This document shows, piece after piece, positions 1 to 20,394 of a DNA stretch of 64,000 nt. Position numbers and translations under genes: made by a program. The notes below the pieces were generated by a model. The model did not search any database. It was given only the letters and a program-made list of their open reading frames with translations, and was not told where the DNA came from. Position 1 is the first letter of the stretch, and each line of letters starts with the position of its first letter. This stretch comes from Chloroherpeton thalassium ATCC 35110 (lineage in GTDB: Bacteria > Bacteroidota > Chlorobiia > Chlorobiales > Chloroherpetonaceae): the NCBI RefSeq assembly GCF_000020525.1, contig NC_011026.1:558001-622000 (forward strand), read 5' to 3'.

Positions 1-552
1 TGCAAAACGATAAATTTTACCTGAATCCTGAGGAACTTCCGATACTTTCCCTACTGCTTTTTGTGTTTCAACGGCCTTCTTCTTGGCTGGCGGAATCACA
101 TACTGCGATACGGGATACAGCACGCTGATGCCAAGTAACGTTGCCATTCCAGCAACAATTTTTTCAAGAAACCCACGACGCTCTGCTCTAAACTCGACTG
201 TTTCAGAAACAACAGCGCTACTGTTCGAATCAATATTTCCTAATCTCATAGTTGTTGTGTTAAGCGATGTTGACTTTCTTGAAAAAACACCTGAACTTGA
301 AGTTTCAGAGGTTTTTTCAACTTGATTTTTTTCCTTTGGCTCTGCTTTTTGCTCTTTTGGGGTTTCGTCCCCAGTTGCACTATTACTAAGCCGTACAGCT
401 TCTTTTGTAACTTTCCCCATAAAATTGCGTCTCATTCCAAAAGAAGTGGCTTCGTCACTTCCCGAATCTATTGAGCCGGAAAACTCTGAAGGCGATTCGG
501 GCATATCACCAAGTCGAACTTCATTATCGTACTTAGCAGCATTCCTGCCCAT
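1..552 (-). CDS. petC: Rieske iron-sulfur protein, N-terminal part (runs off the left edge)
   Basis: On the minus strand an open frame of 184 codons runs from ATG at 552 through the window edge. Residues 1-120 are hydrophilic and rich in Ser, Glu and Lys. They are followed by a twin-arginine-like motif (ERRGFLEK, residues 124-131), a hydrophobic anchor (about 131-150), then YVIPPAKKK and KVSEVPQDSGKIYRF, the signature start of Rieske subunits of bc1/b6f-type complexes. In green sulfur bacteria this protein works with cytochrome b in quinol oxidation at the cytoplasmic membrane. The [2Fe-2S]-binding CxH motifs lie beyond the edge, so they cannot be checked. A good Shine-Dalgarno (AAGGAG, 558-563) sits 5 nt before the ATG. 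The long N-terminal extension ahead of the anchor is unusual. The next gene, outside the window, would be expected to be cytochrome b. Confidence 0.8.
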   Translation of the reverse strand, partial: MGRNAAKYDNEVRLGDMPESPSEFSGSIDSGSDEATSFGMRRNFMGKVTKEAVRLSNSATGDETPKEQKAEPKEKNQVEKTSETSSSGVFSRKSTSLNTTTMRLGNIDSNSSAVVSETVEFRAERRGFLEKIVAGMATLLGISVLYPVSQYVIPPAKKKAVETQKAVGKVSEVPQDSGKIYRFA

Positions 553-911
553 TCTTTCTCCTTTTTTTGTTTTTAATTGTTTTTCGTTTAGCAAAATCCA
601 CCACGAACTTGAAGTTACTCTTTTTACCGAATTTTAAAAACTCTTTTGTTCATTTTGCTTAAAGAAGTAAAGCGCTCTCTGCGTGCAGGTGGTACTCACA
701 AGAAGACTTCAGGATTTCTTAACAACCCATGACAACCTTGATTTGCGCCAACAAACGCAAATCAATTGCGTATTAAGGTAACCCGATTTTTACTTTTTTG
801 CAAATAGACCGCGTTGCACTGCTCAGATTAAAAACACAAGTCTTCTCAATTTTTTGAAATGAACACCAGGCTGCGCGCTTTCTATCTTTTTAAAAGACAG
901 CGAAGCGATCG
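553..911. other. Intergenic region upstream of the Rieske gene
   Basis: No protein-coding frame is convincing here. It holds the Rieske Shine-Dalgarno at its left end and a perfect 10-bp inverted repeat (738-747/756-765, 8-nt loop), about 190 bp before the Rieske ATG. The 3' end of the DinB-like gene lies just to the right; I see no strong terminator for it. Confidence 0.5.
738..765. repeat. 10-bp perfect inverted repeat upstream of Rieske gene
   Basis: Arms TTGATTTGCG (738-747) and CGCAAATCAA (756-765) flank an 8-nt loop. Neither side has a T-run, so it is not a typical terminator. It may be an operator or a stem in the 5' leader of the minus-strand Rieske transcript. Confidence 0.6.
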
Positions 912-1433
912 TCAAGCACCCCAAAGCATTCCCGTGTGCATCGGCTTTCCCTGCAATTTCAAATAATAAAAAAGCTGCCCTTTATGTTGAACCAAATGCT
1001 CCACGCATTGAAGCATACGATAGCCGAGCAGCATTGGCACAGGATGCCATGGCGCCGTCAAAAGTTTTGTGTCCAACGCCTGATCCGTACATTTTTCGAG
1101 CATTTCGTACATGAGCGATTTGTCTTCTGCCAACAATTTTTTGGCTTCTTCCACATTCTGAACCGATGCCAATCGCTCAGCCGATGCAATGGCATGGCCT
1201 TTCATTTTACTCGGGTCAACATTTTCCGGCAAGCCCCAATCGCCTGTCACGAGCCCGCGACAGCCAGCCCCGCACGAGCGCGAAAGATGAAAAAGCAATT
1301 GCCCGACTGTCATCCAATTTTCACCAGAATTTGGCTTCCAATTCAATGCGTTCTCATCCACATGCCCCAAAAGCCTTTCAGTCGCTTTGTAGGCAGGCGC
1401 TGCTTCAGCCGAAATCAATTCACGCCAATTCAT
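912..1433 (-). CDS. DinB-like (DUF664-type) four-helix metalloprotein
   Basis: The 173-residue product starts at the ATG at 1433, which has an AAGGAA ribosome-binding site 6-7 nt upstream. An upstream in-frame start would add 24 residues without a better site. The DinB/YfiT-like superfamily is a four-helix bundle with a three-His metal site. Candidate ligands here are His49 (LLFHLSRS) and His146/His150 (EHLVQHKGQ), in the expected spacing. Members include thiol-dependent transferases and many of unknown function, so no substrate can be named. It lies upstream of the Rieske gene on the same strand with a 360-bp gap and is probably independent. Confidence 0.75.
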   Translation of the reverse strand: MNWRELISAEAAPAYKATERLLGHVDENALNWKPNSGENWMTVGQLLFHLSRSCGAGCRGLVTGDWGLPENVDPSKMKGHAIASAERLASVQNVEEAKKLLAEDKSLMYEMLEKCTDQALDTKLLTAPWHPVPMLLGYRMLQCVEHLVQHKGQLFYYLKLQGKPMHTGMLWGA

Positions 1434-1639
1434 AGCTTTGTTCCTTTTGTTTATGTTAGTTTGGGAGTGCGCGATCATTCCGATGTACTTTTCAGAATGG
1501 TTCAAAATTCGTTTTTTTTACCTCAAATAAAAAAACAGCCTGCTTTCTTTCCACAAAAGATTTCACGCATCGCTGCTGATTATCTGCTCGGCTTGTTTTA
1601 TTTTCTCGCAAAAATTAACTGATTTTATCAAAATTGACT

Positions 1640-2569
1640 ATGCCTAAAATCGCAACCATTGATATTGGGACAAACACGGCTTTGCTGCTTATTGCTGAAT
1701 TTGACTTGGCAACCAAGCAGTTACACACAATTCTTAACCAAATCGAAGTCGTTAGACTTGGCCAAGGCGTTGATAAAGAGCGTCGGATTACAGCCGAATC
1801 CATCAGTCGGCTTGTTTTGGCAATGGCCAAGTTTAAATCTACCATTCAAGCACACGGCGTGGAAAAAACTTACGCGGTTGCAACCAGCGCCATGCGCGAT
1901 GCCCAGAATCGCGATGATGTGATTCAAACGGTGCAGGAACAAACCGGCATTGACATTGAACTGCTTAAGGGAGAAGCAGAAGCCGACATGACCTTTCTTG
2001 GCGCAACCATTGGTTGGAGAAACTTGCCGAAAAAATTTCTTGTCATCGACATCGGCGGCGGCAGTACGGAAATCGCACTTGGCGACCAAAACGGCATCAT
2101 CGATGGCGTCAGTCTCAATATCGGCGCGGTAAGATTGGTGGAGCGCTGCTTTAGCACAATTCCGCCAAAGCCGGCTGAACTTGAAGCGGCCAAAGACATT
2201 ATCACGAAGGCCTTAAGCGCACCGCTTTCTCGATTCATCCAAGGACGCGAAAGTGTTTTTGCAGTTGCTGGCACACCTGCCACACTTGCAAAAGTCATTC
2301 AAAAACTTCCCGATTTTCTCCCCGATCGAATTCACGGTTTTGAATTGACTTACGCTCATGTTCACTCGTTGCTTGACGCATTCAGCAAAAGCACAACTGA
2401 GCAGATTTTGGAAATGGGCGTAGAGCCAGGCCGCGAAGACTTGATTGTTGTGGGAACGATGATTTTACACCAATTCATGAGAATTTTCGGCGTGCCTTCG
2501 GTTCGCGTTAGCATTCAAGGACTTCGCTACGGTGTTGCAGCAAGAAAAGCGAATGAATTCCTTAAATAA
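1640..2569 (+). CDS. Ppx/GppA-family exopolyphosphatase or pppGpp phosphatase
   Basis: The 309-residue protein has the ASKHA-fold phosphate-binding motifs: IDIGTNTALLL at the N-terminus, the catalytic GEAEA loop (Glu113 is the likely general base) and DIGGGSTE at 137-144. It ends after the phosphatase core and lacks the C-terminal HD-like domain of long Ppx proteins, so it is the short type. The expected reaction is removal of terminal phosphate from polyphosphate or hydrolysis of pppGpp to ppGpp; sequence alone does not separate these. A TTG two codons upstream is a weaker start than the ATG at 1640. A RelA/SpoT gene lies elsewhere in the window. Confidence 0.88.
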   Translation: MPKIATIDIGTNTALLLIAEFDLATKQLHTILNQIEVVRLGQGVDKERRITAESISRLVLAMAKFKSTIQAHGVEKTYAVATSAMRDAQNRDDVIQTVQEQTGIDIELLKGEAEADMTFLGATIGWRNLPKKFLVIDIGGGSTEIALGDQNGIIDGVSLNIGAVRLVERCFSTIPPKPAELEAAKDIITKALSAPLSRFIQGRESVFAVAGTPATLAKVIQKLPDFLPDRIHGFELTYAHVHSLLDAFSKSTTEQILEMGVEPGREDLIVVGTMILHQFMRIFGVPSVRVSIQGLRYGVAARKANEFLK

Positions 2570-2703
2570 ATAGCGTTAGTTTATTTTCACCAAAAGAGCC
2601 AGAACTTGTTAGGGCGCATTCTGAATGGCAGGTGAAAATTTTTTAATGCGCAGAAAGTTATTCGGTTTATTTTTTATAAATTCGCCGTCTAAATGAAGAT
2701 TTT

Positions 2704-2724
2704 CCTAATTTATTTAGGTTTTTT
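2704..2724 (+). terminator. Weak rho-independent terminator candidate
   Basis: CCTAA/TTAGG stem (2704-2708/2714-2718) followed by six T. The stem is short and AT-rich, so support is modest. Confidence 0.3.
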
Positions 2725-2788
2725 GCGTTCTACTTTCATTGCTTGCGCTTGTTTTCTAACACGTGTTTTATATATTCCCGCCCGACGT

Positions 2789-2816
2789 TTGCTGTTAAAT
2801 TTGTGTTTTGTATATT
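2789..2816 (+). promoter_or_regulatory. Sigma70-like promoter candidate for the response regulator
   Basis: TTGCTG (-35-like) and TATATT (-10-like) are 16 bp apart. The predicted transcript would start near 2823, just at the first stem of the structured leader. Confidence 0.45.
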
Positions 2817-3090
2817 AAGAAAAGGTAAGTCCTCAAGAGGATGAAGTTATATGCTCGGCTTACCGATCTTTTCTTAGGAAAAGATGTTTTGTGGACTAAT
2901 GCCAATTTTATGAATGTTGATTGTTTACGCTTAACACAACAAATTTGGGGGTTGCTTTTTAACAACTTCTTACGAAGTTCGAATTATCAACAGATCAAGA
3001 ACAACATTTTGTTCTTTCGCGCTATTATTATCTTCTCGTACATTCTGCTCTCTTTCCAAGAAACACCAACAACTAATCAACTAAACATAT

Positions 3091-3774
3091 ATGAATCCGC
3101 GAACTATACTTATTGCTGATGATGAATCTCAGTACGTATCGTGGTTACGAACGCGCCTTGAACAAGAGGGATATAATATTGTTTGGGCTCGTGATGCAGC
3201 TGAAACGCTTGCTCATCTTTCACAAAAGCCTGAAGTTGTCCTTCTCGATTTAATGAACGACTCCAATGGCTTAGAGCTTTGCCGTCAGCTCCGTGCGTTG
3301 CCTGAGGGAAAGTCCGTTCCGATTATCATGCTTGCCAGCAAAAGTGAAGAATCGGATGAAGTGCTTGGCCTTGAGCTTGGCGCCGATGATTTTTTGAGCA
3401 AAACGACAAGTCCAAAGGTGCTTTCTGCACGTATTAAAAATGTGCTGAAGCGCTATCATGTTAATGCTCGTGAGGAATTGACTCGTCTTAAAATTGGCGA
3501 TCTCGAAATCGACCGCAGTTCGCACACCGTGCGCCTCGATGAAAAAGATATTTTCTTGCCTCGTAAGGAATTTGAACTGCTTTGGATTTTAGCCACAAAC
3601 AAAGGCAAAGTTTTTTCTCGTGAAATGTTGCTTCGCCGCGTTTGGGGTGAAAATATTTATGTGACAGATCGCACGGTCGATGTGCATATTTGCAAAGTTC
3701 GTCAACGTCTTGGAAAATTTGGCGAAGATGCGATTGAAACCATTAAAGGGGTTGGCTATCGCTTAAAGTTTTAA
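3091..3774 (+). CDS. OmpR/PhoB-family response regulator (orphan)
   Basis: A receiver domain (residues 1-120) is followed by a winged-helix DNA-binding domain (130-227) ending in the typical TIKGVGYRLKF. The acidic pair Asp10/Asp11 and the phosphoacceptor Asp53 (LLDLMND) are present. The conserved Lys is Lys104, but it is followed by Thr (KTTSP) rather than the usual cis-proline (KP), which may alter the activation switch. No histidine kinase is adjacent, so this is an orphan regulator. The long hairpin-rich leader suggests additional control at RNA level. Function as a DNA-binding transcription factor is confident; targets are unknown. Confidence 0.92.
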   Translation: MNPRTILIADDESQYVSWLRTRLEQEGYNIVWARDAAETLAHLSQKPEVVLLDLMNDSNGLELCRQLRALPEGKSVPIIMLASKSEESDEVLGLELGADDFLSKTTSPKVLSARIKNVLKRYHVNAREELTRLKIGDLEIDRSSHTVRLDEKDIFLPRKEFELLWILATNKGKVFSREMLLRRVWGENIYVTDRTVDVHICKVRQRLGKFGEDAIETIKGVGYRLKF

Positions 3775-3790
3775 ATGATTGAATCGTAAA

Positions 3791-3837
3791 TCTTACCGAA
3801 ATTCTTACCGAAATAGTTTAAAATCAGTCCCGGTAAG
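3791..3837. repeat. Tandem 12-bp repeat with inverted copy after the response regulator
   Basis: TCTTACCGAAAT occurs twice back to back (3791-3802, 3803-3814). CGGTAAG (3831-3837) is the inverse of its CTTACCG core, so either copy could pair with it. No T-run follows. The 3775-3925 gap otherwise holds nothing that I recognise. Confidence 0.55.
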
Positions 3838-3925
3838 AGGAATGGTGAATGCAGGGCCTTGCGAAGCCAAGAGCTTTCATCATTCTTTGGCGGGGAGGGG
3901 GAATTTTTTCCTCTTTTCAAAACGC

Positions 3926-4867
3926 CTAAGACACTACGCTTTCAAGAATTTCCAATTCGCAACCTGCCGCAGCTACACCTAATTTAGCTTTCGCCCCAAC
4001 TGGAAGCACATGTTTATGCTTTACATGTCCATAAGAAAGACCTGACATTGCCGAAGCATTTTCTTTCAACGGCGCAACATATCGCGCAAAAACATCTTCC
4101 ATTGTGAGTGACAACTCATGCTTCGGTATCGCATTGGTAAATTGGCCAAAGATCAAACCGGAAAGATGCGCTAAAATATTTGCGTTTTCCAACTGAGAGA
4201 GCAGTCTATCAACCCGATAAGGTTCTTCTCCAATATCTTCAGCAAAAAAAATGGCATCGTCCAGCTTTGGCATAAATTCCGTGCCAACCAAAACTGAACA
4301 AAGCGAAAGATTGCCACCAAATAAGCGCCCGATTGCGATGCCTTCTTTCAGCGGCTTTCGCTCATGCAAAGGATGGTTTTCAATGTGACCAAAAACATCC
4401 GGGATTGTGATCATTTTCCAAAAAGCTTCAAACGCATAGACATCGGTATTGGCAAAATCGGTCGTCAGCATTGGGGCGGAAAAAGTAATTAATCCTGTTT
4501 TGGCAAAAATAGCCAGGGAAAGTGCGGTAATATCGGAGTAGCCCGCCAAAATTTTCGGGTTGCGGGCAATCAAATCGTAATCTAAAAGCTTCAAGATGCG
4601 CGGCGACCCGTATCCACCTCGCAAACAAAAAATAGCCGTCACGTCCGGGTCGGCAAACATGCGGTTCAAGTCTTCGGCTCGTTCTTCGTCCGTGCCAGCC
4701 AAGTAGCCGTATGCCTTCCGAATGTGCGCCCCGTATTTGACCCAATAACCTTGCGATTCCAAATAGTGCGCAGCTTGCTCTATTTTTTCAACATTTTCAA
4801 TCGGGCTTGCCGGCGCAACCAATCCGATGACATCTCCCGGCGCTAAGCGTTTGGGTTTTAAAACCAT
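3926..4867 (-). CDS. LD-carboxypeptidase (peptidase S66 family)
   Basis: The 313-residue protein matches the S66 family in full length. The N-terminal half has the nucleophile elbow GYSDITAL with Ser111. The C-terminal half has Glu210 (FAEDIGEEPYRVDR) and His281 (GHVKHKHVLPVG), completing the Ser-Glu-His triad. These enzymes cleave the L,D bond of tetrapeptides during murein recycling in the cytoplasm; MccF-like members cleave microcin C. There is no signal peptide, in keeping with a cytoplasmic recycling role. It lies downstream of atpDC on the same strand but behind a strong terminator, so it is probably transcribed separately. Confidence 0.9.
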   Translation of the reverse strand: MVLKPKRLAPGDVIGLVAPASPIENVEKIEQAAHYLESQGYWVKYGAHIRKAYGYLAGTDEERAEDLNRMFADPDVTAIFCLRGGYGSPRILKLLDYDLIARNPKILAGYSDITALSLAIFAKTGLITFSAPMLTTDFANTDVYAFEAFWKMITIPDVFGHIENHPLHERKPLKEGIAIGRLFGGNLSLCSVLVGTEFMPKLDDAIFFAEDIGEEPYRVDRLLSQLENANILAHLSGLIFGQFTNAIPKHELSLTMEDVFARYVAPLKENASAMSGLSYGHVKHKHVLPVGAKAKLGVAAAGCELEILESVVS

Positions 4868-4878
4868 CTCTCTTTTAT

Positions 4879-4927
4879 AAAAAATGAAGGGCTACCAAAA
4901 CCCACCCGAAGATGTTTTTGGTAGCCC
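4879..4927 (-). terminator. Strong rho-independent terminator of atpDC
   Basis: A 12-bp perfect stem (4889-4900 with 4916-4927) is followed on the minus strand by a T-rich tract (complement of 4879-4884). Confidence 0.9.
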
Positions 4928-4955
4928 AAAATCAAATATAGACCGGACGACCTAC

Positions 4956-5216
4956 TTAGTTAATTTTTTCCGCCAAAAGGATTGCTTTATTGTCGCTTAC
5001 TTCAAAAAAGCCGTCGCTTAGCGAATACGTCTGTTCGGATTTATTCGGCAAAACAAGTTTTACTTCTCCCGTACCGAGCGAAGCCAGCATCGGCGCGTGG
5101 TCTCTCATTACCTGAAAAGACCCATAATCTCCCGGTGCCGTAACGCTGACGACTTTGCCGCTGAAAACACTTTCCTCAGGCGTCACCAAGTCCAATTCAA
5201 AAGAGTTATCGGCCAT
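4956..5216 (-). CDS. atpC: F1Fo ATP synthase epsilon subunit
   Basis: The 86-residue product corresponds to the N-terminal beta-sandwich of epsilon: LDLVTPEESVFSGKV, GDYGSFQVMRDHAPMLASL and FEVSDNKAILLAEKIN. It lacks the C-terminal two-helix arm found in about 130-residue epsilons, so it cannot insert a helical brake into the beta/gamma interface in the usual way. Green sulfur bacteria are known to carry short epsilons. It lies 5 bp after atpD in a two-gene operon, with the remaining F1Fo genes elsewhere, a known Chlorobi arrangement. Confidence 0.93.
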   Translation of the reverse strand: MADNSFELDLVTPEESVFSGKVVSVTAPGDYGSFQVMRDHAPMLASLGTGEVKLVLPNKSEQTYSLSDGFFEVSDNKAILLAEKIN

Positions 5217-5221
5217 AGTTC

Positions 5222-6637
<1,416 letters not shown>

Positions 6638-6666
6638 TTAATAGTTTAGGTTTTTGTGAGACTTCC

Positions 6667-6686
6667 AAAAAGAGCGGCACCTCTTT
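6667..6686 (-). terminator. Possible weak terminator after tRNA-Thr
   Basis: On the minus strand AAAGAG-GTGCCG-CTCTTT forms a 6-bp stem followed by two more T. It lies between tRNA-Thr and atpD. Confidence 0.4.
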
Positions 6687-6705
6687 GCCTCATTCTAATT
6701 AATCG

Positions 6706-6778
6706 AGCCACCTGCGGGACTCGAACCCGCGACCTACAATTTACGAAACTGTTGCTCTACCGACTGAGCTAAAGTGGC
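6706..6778 (-). tRNA. tRNA-Thr (anticodon CGU)
   Basis: The minus strand folds as a cloverleaf: acceptor GCCACTT/AGGTGGC, D-arm GCTC/GAGC, anticodon stem ACAGT/ATTGT with loop TTCGTAA (anticodon CGT in DNA), and T-arm GCGGG/CCCGC with loop TTCGAGT. It would read ACG codons. CCA is not encoded, so it must be added after transcription. Confidence 0.95.
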
Positions 6779-7078
6779 CTAATCTGGTGTTTCCGGCTCT
6801 TTTTAAAGCCACGTTACAGTGGGCATGGAATATATGATTTGTTTTTAGTTTCTCAAAGTTTACCAATAGAAGTTCGCTAAAATAACACACTTTCATTTGT
6901 TTTGCTGCTGGCTGCAACGCAGATTTTAACGTTAGAAATGCCAGAATTTGCCACTTCATTTTTTTGGAAATTAACAATGAAGCGTGTGTTTCGCCGTTCC
7001 AAAACGTTATCTATCTAACGTTTCTTATCGTATGACTATTTATGTGGAAAACATGAACATTAAAAACTGAGGGAATAT
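6779..7078. other. Intergenic region between tRNA-Thr and amrS
   Basis: No gene is apparent. It contains the palindrome TAACGTTA (6927-6934) and an 8-bp inverted repeat AAACGTTA/TAACGTTT (7002-7009/7016-7023, loop TCTATC) about 55 bp before the amrS start. Confidence 0.4.
7002..7023. repeat. Inverted repeat AAACGTTA/TAACGTTT upstream of amrS
   Basis: Perfect 8-bp arms with a 6-nt spacer. The core TAACGTTA also occurs as a palindrome at 6927-6934, so the pair could be a protein-binding site. No T-run follows. Confidence 0.45.
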
Positions 7079-8131
7079 ATGATAATTCCAAAATTAGACA
7101 CCGATGTTTATGGAAAAGTTGCTCAGTACTGGAGGCCGCTGCACAACAACAGAGTTCAATGCACCCTTTGCCCGCGCTTATGTAATATTCCTGATGGCGC
7201 TCGCGGATTTTGCTATGTAAGAGAAAACATCAATGGCACCCTTTACCTGACCTCTTATGGCCATGCCATAGGCTTCAACTGCGATCCGATTGAGAAAAAG
7301 CCGTTTTACCATTTTTACCCTGGCTCTAAAATTTACAGTTTTGGCCTTATCGGCTGCAATATGGCTTGCATGTTTTGCCAAAACTGGCATCTAACCAAAT
7401 ATTTTCCGCCTGTTTATGAAAAGCGCACATATGCCCCGCAAGATATTCTGTACCGTGCTGTAAAAAATGACTGCATTGGACTGGCCTTTACTTACAACGA
7501 ACCAATTACCTCAGCGGAGTGGCTCGCTGTTTTAGCCCATGAAGCCAAAGAGCAAGGCATGAAATCCGTGATGGTTTCAAATGGCTACATTAATCCTGAG
7601 GCAAGGGAAACATTATTCAAAAATATAGATGCAGTCAATATCGATTTAAAGGGCTTTAACGATTTTTTTTATCAGCGATTAACTCATTCGCATCTTCAGC
7701 CCGTTTTGGACACGCTGGAATGGCTGGTTCATGAAACCAACATTTGGGTAGAAATTACCAACCTCATCATCCCAAGCAAAAATGACAGCGCCGCGGCAAT
7801 CGCGCAGCTCACCGAATATGTGGCGACGCGCTTAAGCCCGTTAATTCCCATTCACTTCAATGCGTTTCATCCCGATTTCAAAATGATGGATTTGCCGAAA
7901 ACGCCTTTTGAAACGCTGGAAAAGGCACGAGACATCGCATTGAAAAACGGCTTAAATCATGTTTATATTGGAAATGCCCTTTCTGATGAAAGCGCTCTGG
8001 CCAAACAAACATACTGCGCCACATGCGGCGAGGTTCTAATTCGACGCAGCCAATTTGACACCGTTGATGTTTTACTGAAAGATGGCCATTGCCCAAATTG
8101 CGGCGCTGTGTTAAATGGCCTTTTTAACTAA
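7079..8131 (+). CDS. amrS: AmmeMemoRadiSam system radical SAM enzyme
   Basis: The 350-residue protein carries an N-terminal cysteine cluster (C28, C31, C35, C45 in QCTLCPRLC...GFC), the radical SAM motif CNMACMFC (C93, C97, C100) for the [4Fe-4S] cluster, and a C-terminal zinc-ribbon with two CxxC pairs (CATC, CPNC). This is the order seen in the AmmeMemoRadiSam (AmrS) family, once annotated as pyruvate formate-lyase activating-like. Its substrate is not firmly established. The next gene encodes the Memo-family partner AmrB 10 bp downstream, supporting the assignment. The AMMECR1-domain partner is not in this window. Confidence 0.9.
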   Translation: MIIPKLDTDVYGKVAQYWRPLHNNRVQCTLCPRLCNIPDGARGFCYVRENINGTLYLTSYGHAIGFNCDPIEKKPFYHFYPGSKIYSFGLIGCNMACMFCQNWHLTKYFPPVYEKRTYAPQDILYRAVKNDCIGLAFTYNEPITSAEWLAVLAHEAKEQGMKSVMVSNGYINPEARETLFKNIDAVNIDLKGFNDFFYQRLTHSHLQPVLDTLEWLVHETNIWVEITNLIIPSKNDSAAAIAQLTEYVATRLSPLIPIHFNAFHPDFKMMDLPKTPFETLEKARDIALKNGLNHVYIGNALSDESALAKQTYCATCGEVLIRRSQFDTVDVLLKDGHCPNCGAVLNGLFN

Positions 8132-8141
8132 AAAAAGAGTT

Positions 8142-8993
8142 ATGCAGTTTATTCGCGAGCCTCAAGCTATGGATCTTTATCCAAGTGATTGCGGGCAACA
8201 GATTTTTGCGTTTCTCAAAAAATATACGCCATCAACCGAGTTGCCGGAAAAACTTATTGGTGCGGTTGTGCCTCACGCGGCATGGAAATATTCAGGTAAA
8301 GTGGCCGCGCGAACCCTTCACACGCTTTCAGAGCGTAGCTCGCCCGACATTTGTGTGCTTTTGGGCGCAGATCACATCGGACTAAAAAAACATACCCTTT
8401 TGCCTGATGGCACATGGAAAACGCCGCTCGGCTCGCTGCCAATTGCTTCTGAGCTGGCTTCAGCCCTTTACAGCGCGCTGCCCAAAATACTCTCCAATGA
8501 CATGTCCGCTCACGAATTAGAGCATTCGCTCGAAGTCATCTCGCCGATGATTGCTTACTTTTGGCCGAAGCTTTCGATTTTGCCGATTATCATTGTGCCC
8601 AATGCCAACGCGCTTGAAATTGGAAACGCGCTCGTGCAGCTGCTAAAAGCCTCTGGAAAAACGGCCATTTTTGTGGCATCCACAGACCTTACGCACTACG
8701 GACGGTTTTATGGCAACGCGCATGCTGGAACGGGTGAAAAAGCGCTCGATTGGGTGCAACACAACGACAAAAAAATGATCGAATGTATTTGCAACGTCAA
8801 AGCCACTGAGATTTTAAAAGAAGCTGCCGAAAACCAGAACGCTTGCGGCGCTGGCGCACTAACCACGCTCTGCGCCATTGCCAAAGCCCACGAGATTCAA
8901 AAAGGCTATTTGATTGAATACACAACCAGCCATGGCAACGAACATCCAAATTTTTTCCAAAGTGGCGTTGGTTATGCAGGTGTCGTTTTTTAA
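8142..8993 (+). CDS. amrB: AmmeMemoRadiSam system protein B (Memo family)
   Basis: Memo-family proteins resemble iron-dependent dioxygenases. Recognisable blocks in this 283-residue product are REPQAMDLYPSD near the N-terminus, VVPHAAWKYSG (metal-site His), LLGADHIG, LEHSLEVISP, STDLTHYGR and NACGAGALTTL. The ATG at 8142 gives the usual family N-terminus; an ATG at 8115 overlapping amrS would add nine residues that do not fit. It is co-directional with amrS and almost certainly cotranscribed. The biochemical role of the bacterial system is still unclear. Confidence 0.87.
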   Translation: MQFIREPQAMDLYPSDCGQQIFAFLKKYTPSTELPEKLIGAVVPHAAWKYSGKVAARTLHTLSERSSPDICVLLGADHIGLKKHTLLPDGTWKTPLGSLPIASELASALYSALPKILSNDMSAHELEHSLEVISPMIAYFWPKLSILPIIIVPNANALEIGNALVQLLKASGKTAIFVASTDLTHYGRFYGNAHAGTGEKALDWVQHNDKKMIECICNVKATEILKEAAENQNACGAGALTTLCAIAKAHEIQKGYLIEYTTSHGNEHPNFFQSGVGYAGVVF

Positions 8994-9151
8994 AAAAGTT
9001 GATGCGATAACAGGTCTTATTTATCCATGAAAATGCGCGCAGGGATGTTAGATTATTGCAAAAATGATCCGTGAGGGATTTGTACCTAACGAGCGAATAC
9101 GTTCGTTTTGACATTTCTCTAAATTACAATGCTTGAACGAATCTAATACTC

Positions 9152-9619
9152 ATGAATGAAGTTATGGAAGAACGGCTTGCAGAAATGGAGCAGAGAAAAG
9201 AGCAACTCGAAGAGCTCATTAACCAACGACAGGCACAAATCAATCGGCGCGCTGCTACGCTGAAAAAAGACATTGAAGCACGCTTTCAACCGAAAGAAGT
9301 CATTCGCCAATATCCGCTGGCTTCAGCCGGAATGCTTTTTGGCATTGGCGTTGCAATTGGCGGCTGGCTCAAAAAAGATTCGCCTCAGCACGCCGTCCAT
9401 TCGATGGCCAGCACGCCTGCAGCACCACGCGCTGCACAGCCGCAACCTGCCCCAAATTATCATCATGCGCCGCCAAAACAGCAGAGCAAACTTTCTGGAC
9501 TTGCGTCCGACTTGGCGTTTGATTTCCTCAATGCCATGAAAGAGGTTCTTGTCAGCTATGCCATCGAATACGCTTCTGAAAAATTCAAAGAGAAAGCTTC
9601 GCCCAAAAAAAACGGCTAA
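9152..9619 (+). CDS. Hypothetical membrane-anchored coiled-coil protein
   Basis: The 155-residue protein starts with a charged coiled coil (about 1-55, rich in Glu, Gln and Arg), then a single glycine-rich hydrophobic segment (SAGMLFGIGVAIGGWL, about 63-80), then a Pro/Ala/Gln-rich linker and an amphipathic C-terminal helix. The layout recalls the YqjD/ElaB or DUF3618-like membrane-anchored proteins, though I cannot assign a family with certainty. The segment repeats small residues, which suits helix packing or dimer formation in the membrane. No signal peptide is visible. Confidence 0.65.
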   Translation: MNEVMEERLAEMEQRKEQLEELINQRQAQINRRAATLKKDIEARFQPKEVIRQYPLASAGMLFGIGVAIGGWLKKDSPQHAVHSMASTPAAPRAAQPQPAPNYHHAPPKQQSKLSGLASDLAFDFLNAMKEVLVSYAIEYASEKFKEKASPKKNG

Positions 9620-9685
9620 GAAACCAAAATAAACCCCCAAACGTTAATGAAGGGAACTGTTTAACCGAATCAATCAGAACCGCGT

Positions 9686-10639
9686 ATGCACACAACCGAA
9701 ACACTTGAAAAAATACAGCTGCTCCAATCCTTTCCCGAAAATAGGGAAAATGCCTACACTGTTGGTTTTTCGCACGATGGCCAGCGTTTTGCGGCTGCCG
9801 GCGGACTTCGCGCCGCTTTTATTTATGATCTTCATAAAGCAAAACCTATCGGCGGCTTGCTCGATCATTCCCAGTCGATTTATTCCGTTAAGTTTTCAAA
9901 AAATGGAAAGTGGTTTTTCTCGACTGGACGCGATGGAAAAGTCATGGTCTATGACGCTGAAAAGTTTGATAAGATCGCCGTGCTTTTGCCCGAATTTGAC
10001 TTGGAAAGCGCTCCGCCGCAAATCATTCCGAATTTCACCCTTGCGCTCAATCCCGATCAAACCCTTTTGGCAGTTGGCGCAAGCGGCGGTGTGATGCGGC
10101 TTTATCGCACAGACGATTGGTCGCTGCACAAAGTTTTGCCATTGCATCAAGGCAACATTCGCTCGATCGCCTTCTCACCAAACGGCGAACTTTGCGCAAC
10201 CGGCAGCAGCGATCGAATGGTAAAAATTTTGGATGGAAACACATTTGAGGAACTTCAAACCATTGAAGGCCATGGCGATGTGGTTTTTTCCGTTCGCTTC
10301 TCTCCTGATGGAAAAACTTTCGCGACTGGCGGAAAAGATGCTCGGCTTCGAATTTGGTCGGTTGATGGAAAAAAGTTCACGCCAAAGGTGAAATTGCTGG
10401 CGCACACTTTTGCGATAAAAAGCATGCAGTTTTTGCCAAACGCTCACGAACTCGTCACGGTTAGCCAAGATAAAACGATTAAACTGTGGGATCTGGAAAA
10501 AATGCTTGCCACGCAAATCATTGATAAAACTTGCGGCGGACACGCCTTTACCATCAACAGCGTGGATCTTTCGCCCGACCAACCCCACATGATCACCGGC
10601 AGCGATGATAAAACCGTGAAACTCTGGAAAATTTCTTAG
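9686..10639 (+). CDS. WD40 repeat protein
   Basis: The 317-residue product is built almost wholly of WD40 repeats. Clear examples are GNIRSIAFSPNGELCATGSS, GDVVFSVRFSPDGKTFATGG, AIKSMQFLPNAHELVTVS with DKTIKLWDL, and the final INSVDLSPDQPHMITGSDD with KTVKLWKIS. About seven blades would form one closed beta-propeller. There is no signal peptide or kinase domain, so it is likely a cytoplasmic scaffold. The start at 9686 is followed directly by the propeller. A good terminator follows the gene. Confidence 0.88.
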   Translation: MHTTETLEKIQLLQSFPENRENAYTVGFSHDGQRFAAAGGLRAAFIYDLHKAKPIGGLLDHSQSIYSVKFSKNGKWFFSTGRDGKVMVYDAEKFDKIAVLLPEFDLESAPPQIIPNFTLALNPDQTLLAVGASGGVMRLYRTDDWSLHKVLPLHQGNIRSIAFSPNGELCATGSSDRMVKILDGNTFEELQTIEGHGDVVFSVRFSPDGKTFATGGKDARLRIWSVDGKKFTPKVKLLAHTFAIKSMQFLPNAHELVTVSQDKTIKLWDLEKMLATQIIDKTCGGHAFTINSVDLSPDQPHMITGSDDKTVKLWKIS

Positions 10640-14252: not shown

Positions 14253-14300
14253 GGCGGGCAAATCAAAACAGCAAACCGATCGACTTGCTCGCCATTTTTA
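14253..14300 (+). terminator. Rho-independent terminator after AI-2E permease
   Basis: GGCGGGCAA (14253-14261) pairs with TTGCTCGCC (14285-14293) with one G-T wobble, followed by ATTTTTA. Confidence 0.65.
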
Positions 14301-14335: not shown

Positions 14336-16219
14336 TTAGGTTTGGATTTCTTTCTTCAAAGCTTTTGCCATTAGTTTAGCCAGTTCATGGAAAGTAAATG
14401 GCTTTTGAATGAAAAGCACATCTTTATCGAAAATGCCATGCTTCATCACCTGTTTGTCGGCGTAGCCCGACATATAAATAATTTCGGTTTCAGGATGTGC
14501 TTCCAAAAAATTATCGGCCAGTTGCTTTCCGCTCATATTTGGCATAACCACATCCGTCACCAAAATGTGAATCGGATCGCCATAGGCCTGGCTAAACGCA
14601 AGGGCTTCCTCACCATCAGAAGCCGTTAGGGTCTTATAGCCTTGGCGTTTTAAGTTCGATGAAATGGTATTGCGAATCAGTTCCTCATCTTCAACAATTA
14701 AGATGGTTTCCTTCCCGTGCGAAAACTTTTCTATGACTTTCGGCTTTACCTCCGGCTCTATCGGCGCTTGAATGGCTGGCAAATACACTTTGAACGTGGC
14801 ACCTTCATTCACAGCGCTTTTTACCCTGATTGTTCCGCCACTTTGCGAAATGACGCCAAACACCATCGATAGTCCCAAGCCAGCGCCTTCATAAATTGGC
14901 TTTGTCGTGAAAAACGGCTCGAATATCTTTTTTTGAATCTCTTCACTCATGCCCGAACCTGTATCCGAAACCACAATCAGCGCATAATATCCGACATCTA
15001 TTTTATACTTTTTGGCTTGTTCCTTATCGATAAAGATATTTTGCGTTTCTATGGATAAATGCCCGCCCATGGGCATGGCGTCGCGCGCGTTGATCACCAA
15101 GTTCATCACAACCTGCTCAATCTGAGCCGGATCGGCTTTGACGCGTTGCAGATTTGGGCTGTAGGTTGTCGACAATATGATGTCCTCGCCAATAATGCGC
15201 CGAAGCATTTTCTCAAAATCGCTAATCAGCTTATTTAAGTCGAGAACCTTTTTGCGCAATATTTGCTTTCGGCTGAAAGCCAACAGCTGGCGAACCAAAT
15301 GCGCCGCGCGCTCAGCTGCCGTTTCAATTTGAGTGACGCTCTCATAAGCCTCGCTGCCGTCTTCCACTTCGGAAAGCACCAAATCGCTGTTGGCAATAAT
15401 CACAGTTAAAATATTGTTCAAATCGTGCGCAATGCCGCCAGCGAGTTTTCCAACCGCTTCCATTTTTTGCGATTGAAGCCGCTCTTCCTCCATGCGCTTT
15501 TTCTCTGTGATATCTTCTTTAATGCCTATAAAATGGGTGATTTTTCCATTCTCATCGAGCAAAGGGCAGATGCTCGCGTTCTCCCAAAAATACTCTCCGT
15601 TTTTCTTTTTATTATAAAACTCCCCATTCCACTGTTTTTTCGCGCTGATGGTGTCCCATAGCTTTTTGTATTCTTCCTGGGATGTATACTCCGTTTTTAG
15701 CACCCTTGGATTTTGACCTTTCACCTCCTCAAACTCATAACCGGTCACTTTCATAAACGCTTGGTTCACATATTCGATGTTGCCATCAATATCGGTAATC
15801 ACAACGGATAGCGGACTCTGCTCGACAATCTTCGATAGCTTTCGAATCTGGAGTTCATTAATTTTTCGCTCCGTAATCTCATGACCCGCACCAATAATCC
15901 GTTTCAGTTCGCCACCGGAAGTTCGTTCAAACGCCGCCATCCATTCCTCAACCCAGCGATAATTGCCACTCTTATCTTTCACTCGATATTCAACCCTTAG
16001 CGGCTGCTGATGCAAATTGCTTCGAATTTGCTGCAACGCGTCATAAAAGACATGTAAATCATCGGGATGAACGGATCTAATGACATCTCTGTATGTAATA
16101 TTACTTATATTATTCACTATGTTTTTAAAAATATAAACATAAGCTTTATTCATCCATGAGGTTCTTCTTTGCTCAAGATCATACACATAAAGATAGCTTG
16201 GCGCGGTGTCGGTAACCAT
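14336..16219 (-). CDS. Hybrid histidine kinase, C-terminal half of a split PAS kinase
   Basis: The 627-residue frame holds two PAS-type domains (about 1-118 and 125-240), HisKA with the phosphorylated His265 (GGIAHDLNN), an HATPase with N-box NLVINARDAM, G-boxes SDTGSGM and GAGLGLSM, and a C-terminal receiver with Asp556 (TDVVMPNMSG). It autophosphorylates and can pass phosphate to its own receiver. Its reading frame is the direct in-frame continuation of the gene at 16238-18343: the two are separated only by a TAA and six sense codons (SRRFLE), which themselves look like the start of the first PAS helix. The ATG at 16219 has no properly spaced Shine-Dalgarno. See the matching finding. Confidence 0.85.
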   Translation of the reverse strand: MVTDTAPSYLYVYDLEQRRTSWMNKAYVYIFKNIVNNISNITYRDVIRSVHPDDLHVFYDALQQIRSNLHQQPLRVEYRVKDKSGNYRWVEEWMAAFERTSGGELKRIIGAGHEITERKINELQIRKLSKIVEQSPLSVVITDIDGNIEYVNQAFMKVTGYEFEEVKGQNPRVLKTEYTSQEEYKKLWDTISAKKQWNGEFYNKKKNGEYFWENASICPLLDENGKITHFIGIKEDITEKKRMEEERLQSQKMEAVGKLAGGIAHDLNNILTVIIANSDLVLSEVEDGSEAYESVTQIETAAERAAHLVRQLLAFSRKQILRKKVLDLNKLISDFEKMLRRIIGEDIILSTTYSPNLQRVKADPAQIEQVVMNLVINARDAMPMGGHLSIETQNIFIDKEQAKKYKIDVGYYALIVVSDTGSGMSEEIQKKIFEPFFTTKPIYEGAGLGLSMVFGVISQSGGTIRVKSAVNEGATFKVYLPAIQAPIEPEVKPKVIEKFSHGKETILIVEDEELIRNTISSNLKRQGYKTLTASDGEEALAFSQAYGDPIHILVTDVVMPNMSGKQLADNFLEAHPETEIIYMSGYADKQVMKHGIFDKDVLFIQKPFTFHELAKLMAKALKKEIQT

Positions 16220-16237
16220 TTCCAGAAAACGCCGACT

Positions 16238-18343
16238 TTAATGCAAAGCCAGCCGAGCTTCAACTTGCTCGGTAATATCTAACATGGTGGTGAGGAAAAA
16301 TGAGCCGGTCTGGAACTTGATAATCTCACCGGAAAAATTCCCATAGCGCAGCGTGCCGTTTTGCGTGCGAAGGCGCAAGCACATGTTCGAAATCGCCCCG
16401 TTTTCTCTAAGCTGTTTTTTGGCGTCAAGGAACACCTCTTCATCCTGAAAAAAATTAAGCTCCACCGCCGTTTTGCCAATCACATCGGCTTTCTCACATT
16501 CGAGTAGTTTACATAGCGATTGATTTACATTGACAAAAACGCTGTTTTCAAGCTTGGTGAGCGCCATTGGAGATGGATTGTGCTCAAAGATTTTTTCGAA
16601 AAGCTCTAACGCCGCGTGCTGCTCGCTGAGATCTTTTGAAATGCCAAACATGACCTTTTCCTGGTTCCATGTTCCCATCCAAATGCGCGTTTCAACAGGG
16701 ATGAGCGTGCCGGTTTTGGTGCAAAGCGACAAATCACAAAAAGTTTGAATCCCTTTTATTATTTCCATCAACCGACGCGTGGCTTGTTCACGATCTTGCT
16801 CGGCGTGAAGTTCCACAATCTTCATCTGCTGAAGTTCCGATTGCGTATAGCCGAGCTTGGCTTCATACGCATAATTGGTTTGCAAAACACGACCATCTAA
16901 ACTGGCCACAACAAACAAATCATCAATCGTCTCAAAAAATCCTCTGAAATTTGCTTCGCTTTCGGCTAAAGTGAGCTGTGCTTGTTTTAACGCGTTGATG
17001 TCCACGTGCGTACCCGCCATTCGAACAGGCTTATGATTTTCGTCCCATTCGATGACTTTTCCACGATCCAGCACCCAAATCCAACGCCCTTCTTTATGGC
17101 GCATGCGCAAGGCGCACTCATACTGCGGCTGCTGCCCGGAAAAGTGCGATTCTAAAAGAGCCGTGGCTTTTTTTAAGTCGTCTGGATGCGTTAAATTTTC
17201 CCATGTTTTGATGCTATGCGGCAGGAGCTCGTCGCGCGTATAACCCAACATCAATGCCCATTCGTCATTTAGCACCACTTCGCCCGTTTGCACATACCAA
17301 TCCCATAAGCCAACACCAGCACTTTCTACTGCTAAGTTTAGGCGCGTTTGGCTTTCATGATATTTCTCCTCCGCTACTTTTTGCTCGGTGACATCTTTCG
17401 TGTATTCGATGACCCCGATTAACTTTCCCGCGTCATCTCTTAATGGAAACGTAGAAAGCTCAATCCAAGACATCTCCTTGGAACCTGATCTGGTGATTTC
17501 AGGAACAAAAATCAGTTCTTTTTGCGGTAGTCCAGTTTCAAGAGTTCTCAGCGAAGGACATTTTGGGCAAGGCGATTCACTATTTTGATAGGCTTCATAG
17601 CATTTTCTTCCGATAACCGGCCAATTATGCGCTTGCCTTTCTTCAACAACGGAATTGACACTGATAATATTCAGGTTGGTATCCAAAATAGAAATGCCAT
17701 CTTGAATCGCGTTGTAGACATCTTGCAGAAAGCGTTCTTTTTGCCCAACGGTTTCGAGAGAATCTTGCAGATCAGCAATGTCCTTTTTTCTCTTTTCTAT
17801 GTCATAGAAGGCTTTGCCCAAATCAGAAGCAATGTCGGAAATGAGCTCAAACTCCATTTCTTGAGTCACGAGTAACGCTTTCAAATAGACGGTCAGAACG
17901 CCAAATACTTTCGTTTGAAATGAAATTTTTGCAGAAATAGCCACGCCTTCAGGAAGGAACTTGATAACGGGACATTGCGAGCAAGTTTCGCTTCTCTTTT
18001 CTAAAAAGAGCGCGCCGTCGTGCTTGCTGGATTCTTGAAGGCAAAAGCAATTTTCCTCTGAAAAAATTACATTGGAAAGCTTGCCATATTCAGAGCCGCT
18101 TTGCGATTGATAGACATGAGAACAGCACTGCTCGCCCTCTGTGAAAAAAATCCATGTATGATCGTATCCTCCTGTTGCAACTAACAAATCACACGCTTTT
18201 TGCAGCAAAACTTCGGGTTCCTGTTCACGGACGATCAGCTTATTGACACTGCGGATAGCCTTCAAAACGGTATTTTCTCTTGCTAACTTAGCCTCGTTAG
18301 CTACTTTATTTGAGCCTCCGTACATTTCACGCCTCCATAACAA
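16238..18343 (-). CDS. GAF/multi-PAS sensor protein, N-terminal half of a split kinase
   Basis: This 701-residue frame lacks a kinase domain. It has a GAF domain (about 30-185) that includes cysteines in NCFCLQES and SETCSQCP, then four PAS/PAC regions; the first contains GRKCYE and SPCPKCPSLRTLE, a cysteine pattern found in some PAS sensors. It ends with DITEQVEARLALH and an in-frame TAA (16238-16240), exactly where a PAS linker normally continues as L..S..RFLE. It appears to be the sensor half of the hybrid kinase at 14336-16219. As it stands it would be a stand-alone soluble sensor without an output domain; no membrane segment or signal peptide is seen. Confidence 0.85.
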   Translation of the reverse strand: MLWRREMYGGSNKVANEAKLARENTVLKAIRSVNKLIVREQEPEVLLQKACDLLVATGGYDHTWIFFTEGEQCCSHVYQSQSGSEYGKLSNVIFSEENCFCLQESSKHDGALFLEKRSETCSQCPVIKFLPEGVAISAKISFQTKVFGVLTVYLKALLVTQEMEFELISDIASDLGKAFYDIEKRKKDIADLQDSLETVGQKERFLQDVYNAIQDGISILDTNLNIISVNSVVEERQAHNWPVIGRKCYEAYQNSESPCPKCPSLRTLETGLPQKELIFVPEITRSGSKEMSWIELSTFPLRDDAGKLIGVIEYTKDVTEQKVAEEKYHESQTRLNLAVESAGVGLWDWYVQTGEVVLNDEWALMLGYTRDELLPHSIKTWENLTHPDDLKKATALLESHFSGQQPQYECALRMRHKEGRWIWVLDRGKVIEWDENHKPVRMAGTHVDINALKQAQLTLAESEANFRGFFETIDDLFVVASLDGRVLQTNYAYEAKLGYTQSELQQMKIVELHAEQDREQATRRLMEIIKGIQTFCDLSLCTKTGTLIPVETRIWMGTWNQEKVMFGISKDLSEQHAALELFEKIFEHNPSPMALTKLENSVFVNVNQSLCKLLECEKADVIGKTAVELNFFQDEEVFLDAKKQLRENGAISNMCLRLRTQNGTLRYGNFSGEIIKFQTGSFFLTTMLDITEQVEARLALH

Positions 18344-18663: not shown

Positions 18664-20394
18664 TTACTGCGATTCTGATGCTTTTCCAAAAACCCAATAA
18701 TAGTAGTAACCAGTGTACCAATATACTTTTAGCGGCTGATACTTTTTAAATCGTGGATCGGTAACCAGCGGATTCTCATTTCCACCGCGATGCGCATCGA
18801 TGTATTGCGTGCGGCTGTTCGAGCAAAGGATAAAGTAGTCCGGGTCTTCTTGAAACACATAATCGTTCAGCTTTTCCTCATCGAGCGCAGTTGAAAATGC
18901 TCCACGAAATTCTTTGGCGATTTTGCGATCATTTAACCCCCACAAATCAATGACTTTCACATCCAAGTAAAATGGAATTGTGCCGCAATCAATCATCGCC
19001 ATCACCGTTTTCCCGGTCACTTTATCCTTAAAATCTTCGATTATCGGAAAATGACCAGAAAGCTGCGCTTGCTGTGTTTGGTCGGTTTGCTCTTTCAAGT
19101 CTTTGAATGGATAAATGTAGACGAAAAAGCACAAGCCGAAAACCAAACTTTTGCCGAACCAAGAATACTCAGATTCGCTTGGCTGGTTTTTTAAAAATCG
19201 ATGAACGCCATTCAAAAAAAGAACCACTACGAAAGGGAAAATCGGCAGGAAAAATCGATGCGCGTAGCCCATAATTGGTGAGGTGTTGATGAGCGGAACG
19301 GCTGCGCTTACAATCAAAAAGAGAATCAATTTTTCCTCGCGACTGGTTTTGCGAAGGAACAACAAAAAAATCACCGCAAACGCCCAAATGTAATCCTTCA
19401 AAAAATCATAGATGTAAGGAATTCCTTTCAAAATCCAGCGTTTGGCGTAGTAGGTGTTTGGCAAAATGTCGCCATAATACATGTATCGCGCAGCAAAATG
19501 GCCAAGAATCATCAGGCCAGCGGGAAGCGCAAACGGCAAAAGCTTTTGAATATTTTCAAGCGCAAACGGCTTTTCTTGAGAGAAGAATTTCCACGCCGCT
19601 ACAATGGCAAAATAAAGCATTGCTTCCGGGCGAGTCATGGCAGCCAATCCCCAAAGCAGTGACGCAACGATTCCAGCGCGCGCCGATTTGTGGCTTGTTT
19701 GCTCATTTTTGAGCGTTTGGTAAAGCGCAAGCGAAAGCAGCAGCATGGCAAAGGAAGTTTCCATTCCGCTGAGCGCCCAAAAAGCAACCTGAAAATTTCC
19801 AAGAATGAGAAAAGTCGAAATGTAGGCCAGGCGCTTTTGCGTGACGAACAAGCGCGAAATTTTCGTGACCACAATGGCCATGAGCAACCAAAATAGCGCG
19901 CCAAAAGCTTTCGCAAAAAGCTCGATGGAAAGCCCCAGTTTATAAACAATCGCCAGCAAAAAAGTCCATAAAAAACTCGTGTAGCCTTCGACTGGCGCAT
20001 CACCCACGTTCCAAGTCATGCCGTGCCCTTCGGCAAAATGCTTCGCATAGCGATAGGTGATGTAGGAATCGTCGGTAAATTGGTTGGAAAAGTAAAAAGT
20101 TAAAATACTCCACAAACCGAAAAAAAATGCCCAAACTGCAATATCGAATTTTTTCTCATCGGATTTGAAAAAGGCGGCAAGCGAAAGGGTGAGAAATCCC
20201 CAAAGCGTTAATGTGGCAATGCGCTGTAAGTTGGCAATCCAAAGGAGATGATGACTTTCAAGCTGCTTATACTTCGACACAAAAGGGATGAAAATATCGG
20301 GCTGCAAAAAAAACGCGCTGCTCGCTAAAAGGACAACCCCAACGATGTAGAAAATAAGCTTTTGGACGAAAGACGAATTAGTTTGCAAACTCAT
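18664..20394 (-). CDS. GT-C-type membrane glycosyltransferase-like protein
   Basis: The 576-residue protein has about ten hydrophobic segments. The first large periplasmic loop contains DDSYITYRYAKHFAEGHGM and PVEGYTSFLW, the pattern of GT-C-fold transferases related to mycobacterial AftB and other polyprenyl-phosphate-sugar-dependent enzymes; the Asp pair is the likely catalytic or metal site. A soluble C-terminal part has VMAMIDCGTIPFYLDVKVIDLWGL. These enzymes add sugars on the periplasmic side to polysaccharides or lipids. The acceptor is not known. A GT2 gene lies 140 bp upstream on the same strand, suggesting a shared envelope-glycan role. Confidence 0.75.
   Translation of the reverse strand: MSLQTNSSFVQKLIFYIVGVVLLASSAFFLQPDIFIPFVSKYKQLESHHLLWIANLQRIATLTLWGFLTLSLAAFFKSDEKKFDIAVWAFFFGLWSILTFYFSNQFTDDSYITYRYAKHFAEGHGMTWNVGDAPVEGYTSFLWTFLLAIVYKLGLSIELFAKAFGALFWLLMAIVVTKISRLFVTQKRLAYISTFLILGNFQVAFWALSGMETSFAMLLLSLALYQTLKNEQTSHKSARAGIVASLLWGLAAMTRPEAMLYFAIVAAWKFFSQEKPFALENIQKLLPFALPAGLMILGHFAARYMYYGDILPNTYYAKRWILKGIPYIYDFLKDYIWAFAVIFLLFLRKTSREEKLILFLIVSAAVPLINTSPIMGYAHRFFLPIFPFVVVLFLNGVHRFLKNQPSESEYSWFGKSLVFGLCFFVYIYPFKDLKEQTDQTQQAQLSGHFPIIEDFKDKVTGKTVMAMIDCGTIPFYLDVKVIDLWGLNDRKIAKEFRGAFSTALDEEKLNDYVFQEDPDYFILCSNSRTQYIDAHRGGNENPLVTDPRFKKYQPLKVYWYTGYYYYWVFGKASESQ

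Follow-up and report, generated by a model that had tools for sequence, protein, structure and literature searches.

We propose that two adjoining open frames on the minus strand of the window (i.e. the whole 64-kb stretch of DNA analysed here) represent a single hybrid histidine kinase gene, which once encoded an intact protein with GAF, six PAS, HisKA, HATPase and REC domains and appears to have been cut recently by one nonsense mutation in a linker. Judging from the sequence, we assign this reading a probability of about 0.65. An interruption of this sort is an ordinary kind of event. For annotation, the two frames that a gene finder would enter as "PAS sensor protein" and "hybrid kinase" should most likely be regarded as a single disrupted gene, of which the genome carries an intact sister copy.

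The minus-strand TAA at 16240-16238, codon 696 of the joined frame, is the sole stop between two open frames that share one reading frame; the strand reads GCT TTG CAT TAA AGT CGG CGT TTT CTG GAA ATG GTT from 16249 to 16214. As the sequence-only reading had stated, and as reading the frames confirms, the downstream frame (14336-16219, minus strand, own stop codon included; 627 aa from ATG 16219) is parted from the upstream one by this single TAA and the six codons SRRFLE (16220-16237). The same reading had begun the upstream part at TTG 18343, the start given by the longest-frame rule, and had arrived at a joined protein of about 1335 residues. We replace this start with ATG 18325, which is likely to be the true one: a ribosome-binding site GGAGG (18332-18336, minus strand) lies a few bases before it, and its anti-SD duplex energy of -9.3 kcal/mol is reached by 1.3% of the 231 internal in-frame ATGs. 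The upstream part thus spans 16241-18325 (695 codons), and the joined frame amounts to 1329 codons with the TAA counted. No further stop or frameshift was found in it, and by codon-position GC both halves are equally gene-like, a point that speaks somewhat against a disrupted gene. A terminator-like hairpin, a scan match only, is located 3' of the downstream frame (14270-14289, minus strand). Upstream of the kinase, at 18667-20394 on the minus strand, the window encodes a hydrophobic-looking protein of 576 aa with no Pfam match at E<=0.001.

The downstream frame comprises two PAS domains (PASe and PASf), followed by HisKA, HATPase_c and Response_reg domains that score 40.7, 73.1 and 68.6 bits, above the curated cut-offs. 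With HisKA, HATPase_c and REC together, its sequence places it among the PAS hybrid histidine kinases; its best profile matches are CckA-like hybrid kinase profiles, far under their cut-offs. The kinase core keeps 57 of 58 conserved columns (the single departure is I to V), in agreement with the earlier remark that the catalytic motifs are retained, and since all catalytic parts reside in this half, it should need no partner half for catalysis. The upstream part consists of a GAF-like N-terminus and four PAS domains detected by Pfam (PASa to PASd), and indeed lacks an output domain, as had been noticed. Its GAF domain, also proposed from the sequence, is recognizable from a match of 34.5% identity to the GAF region of the paralogue described below, but Pfam makes no GAF call in the upstream half at E<=0.001.

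The case for one gene rests on that paralogue, an uninterrupted frame of 1487 aa in the same genome (G000:C1 about 797975-802438; locus L064 2476-6936, plus strand), which is the closest homologue found. Its modules follow in the matching order, i.e. GAF, PASa, PASb (51% and 53% identity for the two PAS domains), PASe (31%), PASf (58%) and the segment from HisKA to REC (52%), and in a tree of 44 rows the kinase cores of the two proteins form a sister pair with support 100/99. Because the modules on either side of the TAA are collinear within one paralogue protein, we regard the two frames as one gene, and the idea that an ancestral hybrid kinase was cut by a nonsense codon in an inter-PAS linker gains support. 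As the paralogue is uninterrupted, collinear and sister in the core tree, the intact state is probably ancestral and the stop derived. The paralogue thereby supplies one of the marks expected of a nonsense-disrupted gene, namely a homologue that reads on, collinear and unbroken, past the point of the stop. Abutment in the same frame, on the other hand, is no evidence by itself, since the window contains five pairs of long same-frame frames parted by one stop, the kinase pair included, and the remaining four are simply neighbouring genes of different families (e.g. GTP cyclohydrolase I, a polysaccharide deacetylase and an AI-2E transporter in succession; an ABC ATPase next to its MacB/FtsX permease; a DUF3078 protein beside a HAD hydrolase). 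What sets the kinase pair apart is the collinearity of both halves and the linker with one uninterrupted protein.

Across the linker the local alignment is ungapped, with TMLDITEQVEARLALH*SRRFLEMVTD (the asterisk marks the stop) against TLLDISLRKLTEETLRKNEHFLQTITD in the paralogue, and the TAA falls opposite AAA (Lys). The sequence-only reading had suggested GAA as the lost codon. A global alignment with the paralogue also placed GAA opposite the stop; we rejected it, as the linker is misaligned there by the extra PAS modules. GAA is equally one step away from TAA, but it cannot be regarded as established: in linkers of equal spacing the stop column is occupied by A, T, K, E, R and other residues, which leaves the identity of the lost residue uncertain. 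Reassignment of TAA to a sense codon is unsupported, as the paralogue and other genes terminate normally at TAA. The two sister kinases also differ in their PAS complement. PASc and PASd are present only in the interrupted gene, and the paralogue has extra PAS-matching sequence before PASa and a PAS region between PASe and PASf, which indicates that one or both copies have acquired or shed PAS modules after the gene was duplicated. These differences fall at linkers, one of them beside the TAA.

Outside this genome, no orthologue, either intact or split, was found among 338 genomes (the 40 nearest relatives and a 296-genome sample of the phylum, overlapping), where the best matches are kinases at about 33-45% identity. 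A scan of genome contigs returned only more distant kinases, and the best matches in a plasmid search reach at most about 37%. The nearest relative is the paralogue with its different extra PAS modules, and so indirect a basis for dating and polarising the event weighs to some extent against the reading we prefer. HATPase_c matches number 40 in the genome itself, a count that will include some ATPases other than kinases. We rejected the notion that stops are scattered across its kinases, as the seven other stop-bearing matches to this kinase from the genome that were inspected have their stops only at gene ends or starts. In another genome of the same family (G001), locus L071 (positions 1-9997) encodes adjoining PAS hybrid kinases of 2046 and 1220 codons, both uninterrupted; the former runs over the locus edge, so its length is partial.

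The TAA could also be a base error of the assembly or a mutation private to the sequenced stock, in which case the natural gene would be intact. The stop is one base from a sense codon, everything else in the gene is intact, and the genus is represented by one genome, all of which would fit such an origin. However, the genome is a single contig of 3,293,456 bases, 99.86% complete and 0% contaminated, and thus probably of finished quality, which makes a base error harder to accept; we consider this explanation quite improbable. The same genome encodes the FMO bacteriochlorophyll protein (PF02327, E 4e-236), and thus very probably belongs to a green sulfur bacterium.

According to a hairpin scan and folding, the TAA lies in the 3' arm of a 10-bp hairpin (16231-16253, minus strand) followed by GTTTTCT; the base immediately after the stop is A. 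Stability equal to that of the hairpin is attained by 2.3% of 35-nt windows, with a regional z-score of -0.8, and given this near-chance level we rejected a functional hairpin or terminator at the TAA; its presence there is probably due to chance. The same structure bears on the idea of partial readthrough of the TAA, which would yield a full-length kinase. Bioinformatic evidence has been reported that in-frame stops are often tolerated in bacterial genes (PMC7918605), and a hairpin does overlap the stop, but it encloses the TAA rather than following it, is no more stable than stated above, and the codon considered leaky is TGA, not TAA (PMC7918605); nor did the 338 genomes offer an orthologue in which the stop is conserved. 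Readthrough is accordingly the explanation to which we give hardly any credence.

Translation of the kinase half from its own start deserves more attention. The second frame was said to lack a well-spaced ribosome-binding site, and this holds: ATG 16219 lies 18 nt downstream of the TAA, and its anti-SD energy of -2.6 is like that of the average internal ATG (median -2.5). Nevertheless, several ordinary genes of the window also show weak SD matches, some of them no better than that of ATG 16219, and hence the missing SD does not preclude translation of the second frame. Reinitiation 18 nt beyond a stop is plausible. It is possible that low-level reinitiation at ATG 16219 produces a PAS-PAS-HK-REC protein devoid of the upstream sensors, and such a product would be complete, since the ATG precedes the first strand of PASe (by eight residues in a low-confidence structure model). 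In this model of the junction (mean pLDDT 59), the TAA falls at position 122, inside a helix (residues 111-132) predicted with low local confidence; PASe is modelled better, and we treat the model as weak support only. Within the PASe region, the internal ATG 15940 (minus strand) has AGGA just 5' of it and an energy of -5.6 kcal/mol, better than that of ATG 16219, and might serve as an alternative start for a shorter PASf-HK-REC product. The assertion that the kinase has been silenced is consequently not established, as reinitiation at ATG 16219 could still yield the kinase half.

These observations allow for a working two-gene split, in which the kinase half would be made by coupling or reinitiation (at ATG 16219 or ATG 15940), the sensor half would act in trans or be vestigial, and both would be under selection. 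Consistent with it are the position of ATG 16219 relative to the TAA and PASe, the preserved catalytic core, the presence of a comparable separate kinase frame elsewhere in the genome (811 codons, 38% identical), and the precedent of Shigella dgcQ, which with a stop at 56 and Met at 59 can still make an active product (PMC11327459). On the other hand, ATG 16219 has no SD, the sensor half breaks off within the linker and lacks an output, and the same split was found in none of the 338 related genomes searched. A working split therefore seems rather unlikely to us. Still more doubtful is the scenario in which the nonsense change freed a working two-PAS hybrid kinase from the sensors upstream of it: reinitiation that needs no SD would supply this kinase, and selection would have retained it as a signalling gene with new wiring. 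If true, nature would here have turned one multi-sensor kinase into two separate proteins by changing a single base.

With regard to the age of the event, the absence of a second lesion implies that neutral divergence since the interruption does not exceed about 0.015 per site (1.5%), if the whole frame is unconstrained; with indels counted, and under the same premise, the limit drops to about 0.004 to 0.009 per site. The earlier claim of a recent event thus stands in one respect, as the core retains 57 of 58 positions and no other lesion is found, but the argument holds only if the gene is dead. In the tree, the kinase-core branch of the interrupted gene is longer than that of the paralogue (0.72 vs 0.34). 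This does not demonstrate relaxed constraint, because Tajima-type relative-rate tests with four outgroups disagree (p = 1.0, 0.001, 0.34 and 0.43). As far as the sequences go, the data would be compatible both with recent loss and with independent upkeep of the kinase half.

In the scenario we prefer, i.e. the recent interruption of a once-intact kinase, a nonsense change would have arisen between the fourth and the fifth PAS domains of an ancestral uninterrupted protein. Translation would now mostly end at the TAA, yielding a 695-aa sensor that has no output. The kinase half would either not be synthesised at all or arise in small amounts through reinitiation at ATG 16219, as a complete PAS-PAS-HK-REC protein detached from the upstream sensors. 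The original function of coupling the input to the kinase would be lost, and the gene would be a pseudogene or in the process of becoming one. If the kinase half is expressed, it would provide a natural test of the effect of upstream PAS domains on a kinase.

Comparable arrangements are known from other signalling proteins. In Shigella flexneri, the degenerate diguanylate cyclase genes dgcE, dgcQ and dgcN are expressed and make c-di-GMP, and intact orthologues exist (PMC11327459). As in the gene described here, a signalling protein is interrupted by a nonsense codon ahead of its output domain, and that downstream domain is intact; in dgcQ (and dgcM) a Met occurs 3 codons past the stop, in a position reminiscent of ATG 16219 (PMC11327459). 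In contrast to the Shigella genes, the output here is a histidine kinase, known from sequence alone. Kinases encoded in two pieces are likewise represented by CheA3/CheA4 of Rhodobacter sphaeroides (PMC3591291) and Hik36/Hik43 of Synechocystis (PMC7656254), which divide catalytic or phosphotransfer functions between cooperating proteins; hik36 and hik43 are far apart in the Synechocystis genome (PMC7656254), whereas the two halves in our case adjoin. Unlike in CheA3/CheA4 and Hik36/Hik43, all kinase functions here are predicted to reside in one piece, with only the sensors removed.
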